Below, in pieces: positions 6,712 to 14,385 of a stretch of DNA of 64,000 bases. The notes under the pieces are model-generated. The model saw only the letters and a list, made by a program, of their open reading frames with translations, did not search any database and had not been told where the DNA came from. Source of the DNA: a bacterium (GTDB lineage: Bacteria; Orphanbacterota; Orphanbacteria; Orphanbacterales; Orphanbacteraceae). Numbering within the stretch: position 1 is the first letter of the stretch; each line of letters opens with the position of its first letter. The position numbers and the translations under genes are program-made. The stretch covers positions 1 through 64,000 of the forward strand of contig JALGYY010000042.1 in NCBI GenBank assembly GCA_025782575.1. Direction: 5' to 3'.

Positions 6712-7368
6712 ATGAAGGAAAGCGACTGGGATCGATACTGGGAAGGGGCACGCGGGGGGCGATTCACCCGTGTCAGCTGGTCGAAACGACGAATGGAAGC
6801 CGTCCTGGAGCCCTTTTTGAGGCCAGGTGTTCGTGTGCTGGACGCGGGATGTGGCTCGGGCTACTTCAGCGCGCATTTTGTTGACAGAGATTGCCGAGTA
6901 AGCACACTTGACCACTCGAAGGAAGCGCTCGAGATGGCCCGCCGATTGACGAAAGGTCGCGCGGAAGAATACCTGGCCGATGACCTGCTCGATCCTTCAT
7001 TCGCCGAGCGTCACGCGGAAAAGTACGATCTGGTATTCACCGACGGGCTCTTCGAGCATTTTCAGGAGGAAGAGCAGAGGCGAATCCTCGGCAACTTCAT
7101 CGCCGCACTATGTCCTGGCGGGCTGGTGGCGACATTCGTGCCGAACAAGTATTCGTGGTGGACCCTGGTCCGGCCATTCGTGATGCCCGGGATTTACGAA
7201 AAACCGTTCGGCCGATCCGGATTGTTGAGCCTGCATGAAGGCCTTTCGATTGAGGGGGAAGGGGGGATCAGCGTGTGGCCGTTTCGGCACTCCCCCGATA
7301 GAATCCTCGGCAGATCATTCGGCATGCTTCGCTACGTACTCGCCCGCAAAGAGAAAGCCCCCTATTGA
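6712..7368 (+). CDS. class I SAM-dependent methyltransferase
   Basis: A 218-residue protein with motif I RVLDAGCGSG at residues 41-50 followed by a Rossmann-type methyltransferase core (LVFTDGLFEHF, later LCPGGLVATFVPN). It is likely soluble. Its stop overlaps the TTG start of the following flippase-like gene by two bases, and that gene in turn overlaps a GT-C/TPR gene, so the three form an operon. The context suggests modification of a glycan or lipid-linked sugar; the substrate cannot be read. The start follows GGAAGG. Confidence 0.85.
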   Translation: MKESDWDRYWEGARGGRFTRVSWSKRRMEAVLEPFLRPGVRVLDAGCGSGYFSAHFVDRDCRVSTLDHSKEALEMARRLTKGRAEEYLADDLLDPSFAERHAEKYDLVFTDGLFEHFQEEEQRRILGNFIAALCPGGLVATFVPNKYSWWTLVRPFVMPGIYEKPFGRSGLLSLHEGLSIEGEGGISVWPFRHSPDRILGRSFGMLRYVLARKEKAPY

Positions 7369-8345
7369 AGCGTCGCAGTCTACTTCTCTGGATTGTCGGG
7401 CTCGCCCTTTTTTTCTATGTGGAGCATCGTCTCGGTTGGTCGGAATCGCGGGATGCCCTTGCCGGCGCCGACTTCGGTTGGATTATGATCGCCATAACCG
7501 GCTTCATTCTCTCCCAGATCATCCGTATCGCCAAATGGAAGTACTTCCATCGTGCCGCGAGAATCCATGCGGACTGGGTCAGCATTGCAGGATTCTATTT
7601 TCAGATCAAACTGTTTGGAACCCTTACTCCGGGGAGGCTCGGCGAGTTTCTGCCCGCCCTCGCGTCAAGAAGGGAGAGTCGCGCTCCTCTTCTCTCTTTC
7701 ACGACCTATGATCGCTTGAGCGAAGGGTTCATGACCCTTCTCATCGCCGCCATCGCATTCCCTCTCCTTCTTCGTGACCGTTTGCCGGCTTTTGCTTTCG
7801 GGACGATTCTGATCGCCCTTGTTCTTGTCGTTCTGGCCGCGGTTCTTCTTGCTCGGAACGAATGGATGATGGCGTTGGCGCGGCGGCTCGGTGGCTGGCT
7901 GGCGCGTTTCGATAGCTTCCCGCCTGTCGCGTCGGTCCTCAGGTCGCGGGATGAGATCGCGAAGGGAATCGAGTCATTGCAGCACTCGTTCCGGGCCATG
8001 CTTCTGCCCGGACCCGTATCGATTGTTCTTCTGATTACCATCGCAGCGGTGACCGCCGACCTCCTCTTCTGGTGGGCGACCTTTCAGAGCGTGGGAATCG
8101 GGCTCGACCTGAGTACTCTCGTTGCATCGGTCGCTGTCTTCAATATCTCGGCGTTCTTTTCTCCCACGCCGGCTGGAATCGGAGTTGCCGACGGCCTATT
8201 CGTGGTTTTTCTACAGTCCGTCGGACAAGGGGGCGCGCTCGGATCTTTTCTGCTTCTTATGAGGCTGATCCACATTGTCATGACAGCTTTGCCGTTCTTC
8301 GCTCTTCGCCGAGGGAAAGGCCGACTGGTGAGCCGTGAATCGTAG
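7365..8345 (+). CDS. flippase-like membrane protein (UPF0104 / LPG synthase TM family)
   Basis: A 326-residue polytopic membrane protein beginning at TTG (7365), overlapping the methyltransferase stop. It shows the pattern of the UPF0104/AglD/YbhN family: repeated hydrophobic segments, FKIKLFGTLTPGRLGEFLPA-like wording early (QIKLFGTLTPGRLGEF) and FFSPTPAGIGVADG near the C-terminus. Family members occur beside glycosyltransferases and are thought to move or modify lipid-linked substrates. Here it sits between a methyltransferase and a GT-C protein, in keeping with a lipid-linked glycan pathway. Confidence 0.8.
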   Translation: MKRRSLLLWIVGLALFFYVEHRLGWSESRDALAGADFGWIMIAITGFILSQIIRIAKWKYFHRAARIHADWVSIAGFYFQIKLFGTLTPGRLGEFLPALASRRESRAPLLSFTTYDRLSEGFMTLLIAAIAFPLLLRDRLPAFAFGTILIALVLVVLAAVLLARNEWMMALARRLGGWLARFDSFPPVASVLRSRDEIAKGIESLQHSFRAMLLPGPVSIVLLITIAAVTADLLFWWATFQSVGIGLDLSTLVASVAVFNISAFFSPTPAGIGVADGLFVVFLQSVGQGGALGSFLLLMRLIHIVMTALPFFALRRGKGRLVSRES

Positions 8346-10241: not shown

Positions 10242-12383
10242 TTATTGTGCGTGGAGGAGGTCGCGCAATTCGTTCGCATCCCCGAGGATTGCCGGTTCGA
10301 CACAGTTACTTTTGATCTTCTCGCACTCGGCGAGCGCCCCGGCCGAGTTTCCCTCTTCCGCCCAGGCGCGGGCGATTCTCAACCTGACATCATATAGCTC
10401 CGGATCGATCTGGAGAGCGCGGAGACCGAAAGCTATGACGTTCACGTGATCTGTCCTTTTCTCCGAGATGAGCTGCAACATACGGAGAGCGGATAGCTGG
10501 TGTGAGTCCCCGTCAAGCGCGGAGCGGAGAAGTACCTCGCCGGAGCGTGGCTCTCCGGCGAGCAGGAGCAGCGATCCTGCGAGCGCCTGATCATCAGGGT
10601 CCGCAAGAATCGATTCATTGATGAGATCAACGCCAGCTTCCCGATTCCCCGACTTGATGAACCACTCCGCAAGAAGGAGGCGCATATCAGGTGACGCCGT
10701 TCCGGGTGGAACGGCAGCGGCAAGAAGGGAGGCCGCCTCGCTCCAACGACCGGAATCGGCAAGCAAGGTCGCTCGGGCGATCCGGTCACCGGCCGCCCCT
10801 CCGGGAATTTCTGTTCCGTTCAGTTCGAGGGCGCGCCGTCGGTATTGTATCGATTGATCCTCTCCATGGGCATTCGATCGAATAAGTGATTCCAGGTAAT
10901 TGATCGCCAGAGATCGAAGCGGTGTCGATCGTTCGAGCAGACTCGCCAGACCGGAGAGACCAGGGGGTTTGGGTGGTTTCGGAAGCGAGGGGCTTGACGC
11001 GGCCCGGTAGAGAAGTCCGTCAGGAATCAAACCGGGCAAGGGATCAATCGAATAGAGATGCTCATGTCGCCCGGTCGTTGGTCTCCGTTGATCAGCCTGG
11101 TTATTGCCGAATACAGTCCCTGACCGGTTCCTGATTCGTACGTCCTTTCTGAACCCCTCCACCTGCTGGACATAAAGAAGGGGGAACAGAATATCGTCCC
11201 CCCTTACATTCAGCAGGGCGGACCTCGGAAGATCGGCGAGAACAGAACGGGCATAGTAACCCGGTAAGTCGACCCGATCGAACCTATGATCATCCGCGCT
11301 CCCCACGGCACGAATCACCAGGGCGACCCCCAGAACCAGCAGCAGGCCGAAGTTCGCCGCTCGGGTACCCCGAATGGCCGTCGCGATCGCTTCGACACCG
11401 GACATGAGAAGCAGCAGCAGAAGGGGCAGCGCGGGAAGAAAGAAGACAATGTTTTCTTCCACTCGATCCGGAGAAAGAGGGAACCGTAAATACCATGCGA
11501 GACCGGGGAGTAACAGGAAGAGCCCGACAGTGATCAGGAGGATCTCCCTTTTCCTTCTGATCATAAAGGTCAACAATCCCAGAAAAATGAGCGGGATCCA
11601 TGGGAGGGGAATGGAGTCCCTGATGAACGAACCCGTGACAGCTTCAAGGTCGGCGGCTAGAAGAGCGATCGATCGGTCGGCTTGCAGCACCCCGGCGTAT
11701 TGGGTCCGCGTAGCATGATCCAGCAGGGCCCCCGCCGATTCCGGGTTCCCCCAATCCACAAATGGATCGAGTGACGAGCGAATCGGGATGTAGGCAAAGA
11801 CGGAGAGACCGGCAATGAGAAGCAGGAGAGCGGCGGGAGCGCTTCTTCGCCAGCGAATGATCCGGATAACGAGCACGGGAAGAAGTGAGAGGGCGATCGG
11901 GTGGGCAGTCAGGGCGAGTCCTGCAAGAAAGAAGGCGAGAAGTGTGAATCGCCGCCCCCCGCTCAGCAGGGCAAGCCACGTTGCGAGATAGAGAGCCAGA
12001 AAAGGCCCGTAGACTTCAGCGATTCCGGCCTGGTCTCGAAGAAGTCCCGACAGACCGAAAAGGGCCGCACCGAAGAACGCGAACGGTGGTCTTGCGAAAC
12101 GAAGTCCCAGTCGAAAGAGGAGCAGGACTGAAGCGACGGCCCCCGCTGCCGAGAAAAGGCTCAGCCGGAACGCTATCGATCCGAAAGGGAGAAGAGTGAA
12201 GAGTCTTCCGATAAGCGCATAGAGCGGATAGCCGGGTGGGTGTGGGATGTCGAGCCGATAAGCAGCATGGATGAGCTCGCCCGAGTCGCCCAGGTAAACA
12301 TCTCGACACGCGGAAAGGCCGAAGAGCAATCCGAACAGGATAAAAAGGGCGAAAGCCCAGACTGTGCGCCGATCCATCAGCAT
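10242..12383 (-). CDS. DUF2723 family membrane protein with TPR-like C-terminus
   Basis: About 713 residues from the ATG at 12383, which follows AGGACGG; a second in-frame ATG is two codons later. The N-terminal third shows the DUF2723 signature GDSGELIHAAYRLDIPHPPG followed by YPLYALIGRLF. Many membrane helices follow to about residue 380, then a soluble region with solenoid helices (AASLLAAAVPPGTASPDMRL, AWAEEGNSAGALAECEKI). DUF2723 proteins are GT-C-like membrane proteins found with glycosylation genes. The gene converges on the GT-C/TPR gene with only 35 nt between them, and no clear terminator is visible there. Confidence 0.8.
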   Translation of the reverse strand: MLMDRRTVWAFALFILFGLLFGLSACRDVYLGDSGELIHAAYRLDIPHPPGYPLYALIGRLFTLLPFGSIAFRLSLFSAAGAVASVLLLFRLGLRFARPPFAFFGAALFGLSGLLRDQAGIAEVYGPFLALYLATWLALLSGGRRFTLLAFFLAGLALTAHPIALSLLPVLVIRIIRWRRSAPAALLLLIAGLSVFAYIPIRSSLDPFVDWGNPESAGALLDHATRTQYAGVLQADRSIALLAADLEAVTGSFIRDSIPLPWIPLIFLGLLTFMIRRKREILLITVGLFLLLPGLAWYLRFPLSPDRVEENIVFFLPALPLLLLLLMSGVEAIATAIRGTRAANFGLLLVLGVALVIRAVGSADDHRFDRVDLPGYYARSVLADLPRSALLNVRGDDILFPLLYVQQVEGFRKDVRIRNRSGTVFGNNQADQRRPTTGRHEHLYSIDPLPGLIPDGLLYRAASSPSLPKPPKPPGLSGLASLLERSTPLRSLAINYLESLIRSNAHGEDQSIQYRRRALELNGTEIPGGAAGDRIARATLLADSGRWSEAASLLAAAVPPGTASPDMRLLLAEWFIKSGNREAGVDLINESILADPDDQALAGSLLLLAGEPRSGEVLLRSALDGDSHQLSALRMLQLISEKRTDHVNVIAFGLRALQIDPELYDVRLRIARAWAEEGNSAGALAECEKIKSNCVEPAILGDANELRDLLHAQ

Positions 12384-12532
12384 CGATCCGTCCTGGCTCC
12401 TATTCGTGCAAATCGGAACGAACCGATCGCAAAATGGACGATTTGGTATTACCGGCAGCATACCCTTTCCGAAAGGACCGTTCTACATGCAAGCCTGGGC
12501 CTCGGTTAGCTGAAATCGGTTCGCGGGCGGTC

Positions 12533-12548
12533 TGGCATCCCACTTGCA
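12533..12548 (+). promoter_or_regulatory. sigma-54 (-24/-12) promoter
   Basis: TGGCATCCCACTTGCA matches the RpoN consensus TGGCACG-N4-TTGCA with the essential GG and GC at the correct 10-nt separation. The start codon of the small lipoprotein lies 44 nt downstream, which leaves room for a short leader and a GGAGG site. A short palindrome (CCTTTC-C-GAAAGG, 12464-12476) about 60 nt upstream could be an enhancer site, but this is speculative. Confidence 0.65.
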
Positions 12549-12591
12549 TTCCCATTCGGGTAACACAAGCATCCTACGGAGGTCGACGGTT

Positions 12592-12798
12592 ATGCGATAC
12601 ACGATGGTCCTGGCTCTTCTTGCCGGTTTCTTGTTTTCGAGCTGTGCCGCCTACCGGCGGCCGGCACCCCCTCCGCCGCGGGCCGAGATCCGGCAGGGCA
12701 CCCCCTGCCCCGGGTCAACCTGGAACGCAGGTCATTGGCGCTGGGAAGGAAAGCGGCACGGATACCGATGGGTACCTGGGCATTGGCATTGCCCGTGA
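12592..12798 (+). CDS. small lipoprotein with YXWxxGxW-like motifs
   Basis: A 68-residue protein. The ATG at 12592 has a GGAGG site just upstream. The N-terminus is a lipoprotein signal (LLAGFLFSSC). The mature part is proline-rich, then carries two aromatic-glycine motifs, WNAGHWRWEGKRHGYRW and VPGHW, typical of small secreted YXWGXW-repeat proteins whose function is not established. The upstream sigma-54-type promoter implies regulated, probably stress or surface-state dependent, expression. Two cysteines remain in the mature chain, CPGS and the penultimate residue. It stands alone; the next gene starts 74 nt later behind its own ribosome-binding site. Confidence 0.7.
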   Translation: MRYTMVLALLAGFLFSSCAAYRRPAPPPPRAEIRQGTPCPGSTWNAGHWRWEGKRHGYRWVPGHWHCP

Positions 12799-12872
12799 TC
12801 GGTTTGACTGGTTCGAGAGCAGCCGGAGAGATATGTTCTCCTCTCAGTTGATTCGGAGAGGGGATTTTTCCG

Positions 12873-13760
12873 TTGAACAGTACAGGCAGATTTCTGCAGG
12901 CGGTCTATGAGAAGTACTCGGTCCCCTCTTTTCTTGATACGGATCCCCTCCCGCTTGTCCGCCGATACCGAACGAGCCAGGATCGAGAGGTGGCGGGATT
13001 TCTGACAGCCCTGCTCGCCTATGGCCGTGTCGAATCGATTCGACGGCATGTTTCTCTCATTCTCAATGAACTCGGTCCCCATCCAGGGCGGTCGATACTG
13101 CGGTTCGATCCCGAACGTTTCCTCTCGCGAATGGCCGACTTGAGATACCGGTTCCATACGGGACGGGATCTGGCCGCTCTTCTCCTCATATTGAAAAAGG
13201 TTTATCAATCGCATCAAAGTGTCGAAAACCTGTTCGTAGCCGGAAAAGGGGATACGAAGACCCGATTGGGGGCAATGGTTCGCCATCTGAATTCGATCTC
13301 ATTAGAGCCGATCTTCCCCGATGGTGAAGGCGATCGGTCCTATGGTCTCCGATTTCTCCTGGCGGATCCTGCCAATGGAGGCGCTTGCAAGCGATGGAAT
13401 CTGTTTCTCCGATGGATGGTGCGTCCGGACGACGGAATCGATTGCGGTGTCTGGAACAAGGTCCAACCATCGGAATTGATCGTTCCTCTCGATACTCACC
13501 TGCTTCGCATCGGCAGGCGGCTCGGGTTCATTCGGATCAAGACGGCAACCTGGAACGGGGCGGAAAGCTTCACGGAATCGCTACGCAAGTTCGACAGAAA
13601 CGATCCCGTCCGTTTCGACTTTTCCTTGTGTCGACTCGGGATACTCGATCGATGTCCTGTGAATGGTTTTCGAATAAAATGTGCAAATTGCGAGCTACGT
13701 GATCACTGTGAGCTCGCTTGGAGCGAAAATGGCCCTCAAAAAAATGTCAAACTACTGTGA
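12873..13760 (+). CDS. TIGR02757 (DUF2400) family protein, endonuclease III-like features
   Basis: A 295-residue protein starting at TTG 12873 behind GGAGAGGGG. It matches the TIGR02757 pattern (EVAGFLTALLAYGRVESIRR, residues 39-58, and the long central region). Residues 205-219 (PLDTHLLRIGRRLGF) resemble the catalytic VDTH..R..NR block of HhH-GPD DNA glycosylases, with Asp207 in the position of the catalytic Asp. The C-terminus has Cys261-X8-Cys-X2-Cys-X5-Cys279, close to the 4Fe-4S loop of endonuclease III (CX6CX2CX5C). A DNA-repair or nucleic-acid role is therefore plausible. The family has no settled function that I can name. Confidence 0.85.
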   Translation: MNSTGRFLQAVYEKYSVPSFLDTDPLPLVRRYRTSQDREVAGFLTALLAYGRVESIRRHVSLILNELGPHPGRSILRFDPERFLSRMADLRYRFHTGRDLAALLLILKKVYQSHQSVENLFVAGKGDTKTRLGAMVRHLNSISLEPIFPDGEGDRSYGLRFLLADPANGGACKRWNLFLRWMVRPDDGIDCGVWNKVQPSELIVPLDTHLLRIGRRLGFIRIKTATWNGAESFTESLRKFDRNDPVRFDFSLCRLGILDRCPVNGFRIKCANCELRDHCELAWSENGPQKNVKLL

Positions 13761-13986: not shown

Positions 13987-14385
13987 GTGGCCACCAGAAA
14001 GAAAACTTCTGCTCGGCGGAAAGTAAAAGCCGGCAAGAAGAAAGTTGCGAAGAAGAGGACGACGAGAAAGAAAGCCACTCGTAAGAAGAAGGTAGCGAAG
14101 AAGCGCGCCACTAAGAAGAAGGCCAAGAAGAAAAAGGCCAAAAAGAAAGCTACGCGCAAGAAAGCCAAGAAGAAGACCACGCGCAGAAAGGCCAAAAAGA
14201 AGACCACGCGCAGAAAGGCCAAAAAGAAGGCTACGCGCAAAAAGGCCAAAAAGAAAGCTACGCGCAAAAAGGCCAAAAAGAAGGCTACGCGCAAAAAGGC
14301 CAAAAAGAAGGCTACGCGCAAGAAGGCCAAGAAGAAAACTACGCGCAAGAAAGCCAGGAAGAAAGCTACGCGCAGACGTCGCTAG
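13987..14385 (+). CDS. histone H1-like / AlgP-type lysine-alanine-rich DNA-binding protein
   Basis: A 132-residue protein composed almost only of Lys, Arg, Ala and Thr, with no acidic residue. GTG start at 13987 follows GGGAGGAAAA. From residue 51 to the end it is nine tandem nonapeptides of the type AKKKATRKK, encoded by 27-bp repeats. Such tails resemble eukaryotic H1 C-termini, chlamydial Hc2 and pseudomonad AlgP, which bind DNA or RNA without sequence specificity and condense the nucleoid. It has its own strong promoter, a long leader and a hairpin after the stop, so it is a single-gene unit. Repeat number is likely to vary between strains. Confidence 0.88.
   Translation: MATRKKTSARRKVKAGKKKVAKKRTTRKKATRKKKVAKKRATKKKAKKKKAKKKATRKKAKKKTTRRKAKKKTTRRKAKKKATRKKAKKKATRKKAKKKATRKKAKKKATRKKAKKKTTRKKARKKATRRRR
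14137..14382 (+). repeat. nine tandem 27-bp coding repeats
   Basis: Nine in-frame 27-bp units (pattern gccaaaaagaaggctacgcg, then caaaaag) encode AKKKATRKK variants with Thr for Ala or Arg for Lys in some units. Adjacent units differ by only a few bases, which suggests recent slippage or unequal exchange. Confidence 0.9.

Follow-up and report, generated by a model that had tools for sequence, protein, structure and literature searches.

The window analysed here is a 64-kb stretch of bacterial DNA (positions 1 to 64,000 of contig JALGYY010000042.1, assembly GCA_025782575.1). On its forward strand, a sigma-54 (-24/-12) promoter element at 12533-12548 precedes the gene for a 68-residue lipoprotein with WXXGXW motifs. 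Comparison with related genomes strongly supports that this element is a genuine sigma-54 promoter. Moreover, we consider it likely that a dedicated enhancer-binding protein (EBP), acting on a conserved dyad at 12405-12420 together with RpoN, switches on this small envelope lipoprotein. The circuit is of a known kind and represents a new instance of it, while the conserved candidate activator site is newly recognized.

The promoter element in the window

The element reads TGGCATCCCACTTGCA, with GG at 12534-12535 and GC at 12546-12547 and 10 nt between them, and agrees exactly with the TGGCAY-N5-TTGCW context. An earlier note, made from the letters alone, had described a near-perfect site with GG/GC at the correct spacing and had noticed no equal in the window. 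Both points are borne out: at zero mismatches the pattern TGGCAYNNNNNTTGCW (TGGCAYN5TTGCW) occurs at a single place in the 64 kb, 12533-12548. Allowing up to two mismatches gives 38 matches, with 29.9 expected, and these matches are background. The end of the element lies 43 nt from the ATG at 12592, and transcription is predicted to start near 12558-12560. When the 200 nt before the lipoprotein start were shuffled 3000 times with dinucleotide composition kept, the exact site appeared in none of the shuffles and a site with at most one mismatch in five. No sigma-70-like promoter match was found in 12380-12880.

Sigma-54 machinery and the class of sites

The comparison covered seven genomes of the phylum (G000 to G006). 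G000 is the genome of the window (4.88 Mb in 49 contigs, 95% complete; the window lies on contig C34), and the relatives that carry the lipoprotein gene belong to Candidatus Eisenbacteria; judged by this kinship, G000 is probably an Eisenbacterium too. The earlier note had staked its reading on an rpoN gene and had pointed to genome-wide scans for RpoN sites and EBPs. G000 encodes RpoN (one PF04552 match, E 8.1e-62, 209.2 bits) and has 27 EBP domains at E < 1e-50 (33 matches overall at E <= 0.001); among these genome-wide profile matches to RpoN and EBPs, none lies on C34. The site scan gave 12 exact matches in G000 and 7 for the reversed pattern. Over the seven genomes the figures are 73 and 50 (14 and 16 in G002 alone), a modest excess; the case rests on location and conservation.

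Location was assessed with gene calls from a purpose-written codon-usage gene caller around all 73 exact matches and around the 30 of the 50 reversed-pattern places that were available as loci. Outside called genes lie 68 of the 73 exact matches compared with 3 of the 30 reversed-pattern loci (Fisher p 1.4e-16); since the caller misses some small genes, "outside" is somewhat generous, for both sets alike. At 47 of these 68 sites a called gene on the same strand follows soon after. These results indicate that the site class is functional in the lineage and that exact -24/-12 matches are largely trustworthy as promoters. Eleven of the 12 exact sites in G000 lie before genes and one (L010) within a called gene. 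The genes that follow encode a flagellar protein of the FlgE/F/G type, a sigma-70-family factor (resembling FliA by eye), a lipid A acyltransferase, LytB/IspH, a beta-helix protein, the window lipoprotein and, next to an EBP gene, a pilin-like protein; the products after four sites (L002, L003, L005 and L007) are without a Pfam match. The flagellar, sigma-70-family, pilin-like and lipid A genes are classical kinds of sigma-54 target.

Two side observations concern these downstream genes. LytB/IspH-like genes follow exact elements in G000, G001 and G003 (L012, L146 and L172; assigned by Pfam in G000 and by eye in the others), and sigma-54 control of isoprenoid synthesis would, to our knowledge, be out of the ordinary. 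Lipid A acyltransferase-like genes follow exact elements in six genomes (L009, L141, L144, L171, L180 and L189; Pfam in G000, by eye elsewhere), with the G000 site about 3 kb from rpoN.

Conservation upstream of the lipoprotein orthologues

An orthologue of the lipoprotein is present in five of the six other phylum genomes, with 50-68% identity. No match was found in G006 (91% complete, 340 contigs) or in the 34 compared genomes outside the host's family. According to the earlier note, lack of the site upstream of orthologues would speak against the promoter; the element is found upstream of all six, 28-61 nt before the start in the five relatives. It is exact in G000, in G002 and G005 (TGGCACTACTTTTGCA) and in G003 (TGGCATCCCCTTTGCA), and has one mismatch in G001 (TGGCGCGGCTCTTGCA) and G004 (CGGCACCACTCTTGCA). 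With 3000 dinucleotide shuffles per region, at most one mismatch allowed and GG/GC fixed, the site recurs in only 1-11 shuffles per region. G002 and G005 are of the same genus and are counted as one lineage.

The G004 orthologue (L018, reverse strand) has no ATG, GTG or TTG at the expected start. Its start was taken by eye as a CTG 6 nt after GGGAGG; alternatively, there is a sequence error.

A conserved dyad upstream of the promoter

The earlier note had further suggested that a palindrome upstream, CCTTTC-C-GAAAGG, could be an activator site. The palindrome (CCTTTCCGAAAGG) is indeed present at 12464-12476, its only exact copy in the window. It occurs in one of the six orthologous regions, which rules it out as a conserved activator site, and it might have a role in G000 alone. 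The likelier candidate on sequence grounds is another dyad, CGTGC-N6-GAACG at 12405-12420, which starts 128 nt before the promoter element and which we propose as the EBP site. As CGTKC-N6-GMACG it is found in all six regions with 0-1 mismatch, starting at -127, -128, -128, -130, -132 and -133 from the element. The motif had been spotted by eye before a systematic search, in which all patterns of 4+4 bases with gaps of 0-12 in the upstream 220 nt of the window were compared with four other lineages, the same distance from the promoter being required within a tolerance of 4 nt. In this search GTGC-N6-GAAC had one mismatch in total; none of 400 shuffled sets did better than six.

The dyad also distinguishes WXXGXW promoters among the 73 exact sigma-54 sites. 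Within -140 to -100 it is present with at most one mismatch at five of the seven WXXGXW promoters and at none of the 66 others (p 1.4e-6); at up to two mismatches the numbers are 7/7 and 4/66, and at up to three 7/7 and 37/66. Four of the seven (L011, L133, L156 and L016) are orthologues from which the pattern was taken. The other three (L007, L134 and L021) belong to paralogue operons, and their dyads, with one mismatch in G000 and two each in G001 and G002, provide independent support.

The promoter could be real and the dyad belong to another regulator, for example one of the divergent TMEM260-like gene, with the EBP using an unrecognized upstream site or no specific one. In G000, 21 nt separate the dyad from the likely start of that gene. 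However, its distance from the promoter is kept (-127 to -133) while that to the divergent gene varies: in G001 the upstream neighbor is co-directional, and in G003 and G004 the divergent gene starts another 59-65 nt away. A version of the dyad is also found at the paralogue operon, where the neighbors are different. We regard a separate regulator as rather unlikely.

A paralogue operon and a candidate activator

In G000 (contig C13, near 375 kb) and G001, the element is followed by genes for a lipoprotein, a WXXGXW protein and a Tyr/His/Trp-rich protein, whereas in the G002 paralogue it stands directly before the WXXGXW protein. The three scanned paralogues score 20.6 (G001), 14.6 (G002) and 12.4 bits (G000) against PF12779. 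In G000 this second WXXGXW operon carries both the promoter element and the dyad.

In all three genomes with the operon, an EBP gene terminates 5.7-6.1 kb upstream of the operon promoter. This gene (C13:381689-383098 in G000) encodes an AAA+ sigma-54 interaction domain, a lid and a Fis-type helix-turn-helix, with weaker matches to general AAA models and no receiver domain among the Pfam matches. Between it and the operon lie ABC-2 transporter genes and a gene for a small protein that is weakly DUF1931-like (below the cut-off). Synteny thus points to this protein as a candidate, and it may be the cognate EBP. Among the 27 EBP loci in G000, two others (L031 and L036) have a one-mismatch dyad in the 300 nt upstream, which is about chance level.

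On the reverse strand of L220, a gene at 7150-8229 adjoins the receiver-less EBP gene. The C-terminal half of its product matches O6-methylguanine DNA methyltransferase, and the N-terminal part looks sigma-factor-like by eye, without an assignment.

The lipoprotein and its relation to BcpO

The open reading frame at 12592-12798 (forward strand) is preceded by a ribosome-binding site, GGAGG at 12578-12582, 9 nt before the ATG. As the earlier note had it, with the motifs given as YXWxxGxW, the product is a 68-residue lipoprotein with WXXGXW motifs. Read by eye, the signal peptide consists of a hydrophobic stretch followed by SSC18, where Cys18 is the lipobox cysteine, and the two W-x-x-G-x-W motifs are WNAGHW and WVPGHW. 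All six orthologues keep Cys18, Cys39 and Cys67. In the first repeat they also share Gly47 and Trp49, its first Trp being exchanged in G004, and in the second Trp60, Gly63 and Trp65. At position +2 all six have Ala, so sorting to the outer membrane is expected, and the same argument from residue +2 has been made for BcpO [PMC3415462]. The match to the Pfam family PF12779 (WXXGXW) reaches 17.1 bits (E 0.0061), below the gathering score of 18, although the family's two motifs after a signal peptide are present. A search of solved structures with the lipoprotein gave nothing significant (best E 0.38), and the AlphaFold model is weak (mean pLDDT 62.1, pTM 0.26) and thus unfit for a fold search.

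The only NCBIfam match is to BcpO (NF037971), covering residues 7-65. BcpO is encoded in the bcpAIOB loci for contact-dependent inhibition (CDI) of Burkholderia, and in the parts of PMC3415462 considered, B. thailandensis lacking bcpO no longer autoaggregated and showed strongly reduced CDI, the autoaggregation defect not being complementable. These phenotypes make an outer-membrane helper role the best analogy; membership in BcpO is not claimed. If the lipoprotein were a true BcpO, it would be a helper of a two-partner secretion or CDI system. Its size, lipobox and predicted location resemble those of the BcpO described there, and ShlB-type transporter matches exceed the Pfam cut-off in six of the seven genomes (best 38.7 bits, in G002). 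The score of 30.3 bits, however, is well under the BcpO cut-off of 80, and Cys39 and Cys67, invariant in the orthologues, are extra relative to BcpO. Instead of a bcpAIOB locus, the neighbors are the TMEM260-like gene and a DUF2400 gene. The ShlB matches, moreover, are confined to the final ~70-126 of 311 positions (24.1 bits at best in G000), as would be expected of any Omp85-like barrel. We therefore judge a true BcpO to be very unlikely. The CDI link was set aside with genome-wide ShlB matches that are partial only, no search for the exoprotein having been made.

The proposed circuit

In the circuit that we favor, RpoN RNA polymerase would wait in a closed complex at 12533-12548. The EBP would recognize CGTKC-N6-GMACG at 12405-12420, its center about 146 nt upstream of the expected start, and loop to the promoter, which ATP hydrolysis would then open. 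The 68-residue lipoprotein would be made solely under the signal of the activator; after export it would receive its lipid at Cys18 and be sorted to the outer membrane. There, a periplasmic WXXGXW module of about 50 residues, perhaps with a Cys39-Cys67 disulfide, might serve as a small component that helps to maintain the envelope or assists secretion, as the analogy with BcpO suggests. A further target of this activator is probably the second operon, with its lipoprotein, WXXGXW protein and uncharacterized protein. Of this picture, sequence comparison shows the promoter element with its conservation, the dyad with its restriction to WXXGXW promoters, and the presence of rpoN and EBPs in G000; activation through the dyad, the identity of the EBP, and the localization, disulfide and function of the lipoprotein are inferred.

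It is hardly credible that the element matches by chance and that the gene has an ordinary promoter: exact matches do occur about every 0.4 Mb in G000, and the reversed pattern gives 7 to their 12, but the element recurs at a similar place in all six orthologous regions, whose flanks are poorly alignable (46% mean column identity, in an alignment that held G001 and G004 in reversed orientation), and both the location bias (68/73 and 3/30) and the lack of a sigma-70-like match in the region speak against chance.

Several points weigh against the proposed circuit. Two of the six genomes with the gene (G002 and G005) belong to one genus, the raw pattern counts given above exceed the reversed control modestly, and the similarity to BcpO is remote. 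Because the six regions themselves supplied the dyad pattern, their match to it is not an independent test, and four of the 66 other sigma-54 sites likewise reach two mismatches. By itself the dyad is common: the window holds three exact copies and 18 with at most one mismatch (11.6 expected), and it occurs at 36 places in G000. Combined with a loose promoter pattern it gives 14 matches in the seven genomes, as does the reversed control. As for the candidate EBP, it is present in all seven genomes, including G006, which is without an orthologue or a dyad-plus-promoter match; no WXXGXW gene was found near it in G003 and G004, and none of the seven has a dyad with at most one mismatch within 300 nt upstream of it.

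Seven of those 14 matches are the WXXGXW promoters, five lie inside called genes, and L255 and L258 make up the rest. The matches other than the WXXGXW promoters are not claimed as targets, five being in genes and the doubtful gene of L258 lying far downstream. At L255 (G000:C17:146252-146382), a one-mismatch dyad is accompanied by a sigma-54-like element near the ribosome-binding site, 34 nt before a gene for a 494-residue lipoprotein; this locus is a possible third target or a chance match.

A broader proposal is that Eisenbacteria have an EBP/sigma-54 regulon that uses CGTKC-N6-GMACG and has WXXGXW envelope proteins as its targets, possibly with the receiver-less EBP as activator. We give this proposal even chances. 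If true, it would be an envelope-response regulon that covers both a stand-alone lipoprotein and an operon-borne WXXGXW protein, and we know of no counterpart. The case would link the WXXGXW repeat family, whose function is unknown, with a regulated response of the envelope that has a proposed operator.

Comparison with known systems

Sigma-54 as the controller of the bacterial exterior is a published theme [Francke et al. 2011, PMC3162934], and our result fits this idea. As in the sigma-54/EBP envelope promoters discussed there, the present case combines a -24/-12 element, RpoN and EBPs, an upstream dyad and an envelope product, and flagellar, pilin-like and lipid A genes bear the element here as well. 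The target gene of the window, in contrast, is absent from the passages of that paper considered. The literature searched contained no work on Eisenbacteria with rpoN or sigma-54.

For the dyad, the nearest likeness is with the one-component EBP DVU2894 of D. vulgaris, whose upstream activating sequence is given as yGTCA-N6-TGACr in the part of PMC4641369 considered. Both are inverted repeats with an N6 spacer upstream of sigma-54-type regulation. The half-site differs, being GTCA for DVU2894 and GTKC for the dyad in the window, where the cognate activator is still a candidate. Among 78 WXXGXW loci, none of the 75 beyond three Eisenbacteria orthologues has the element (at most one mismatch) in the scanned upstream stretch; these 75 include the G001 paralogue (L072), where the element is situated farther upstream, ahead of the operon's first gene.

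Gene neighborhood

The divergent gene at 10242-12383 (reverse strand) encodes a TMEM260-like membrane protein with TPR repeats. Its likely start is 12383 and not 12461, as judged from the gene caller and the starts in the relatives. Downstream of the lipoprotein gene, a DUF2400 gene (Pfam) lies at 12873-13760 on the forward strand, and a DUF2400-similar gene, recognized by eye, follows the lipoprotein in four of the five other genomes with the orthologue (G002, G003, G004 and G005). Farther along, at 13987-14385, an open reading frame without a Pfam match begins with GTG and encodes a histone H1-like protein of 132 residues made of Lys/Arg/Ala repeats.
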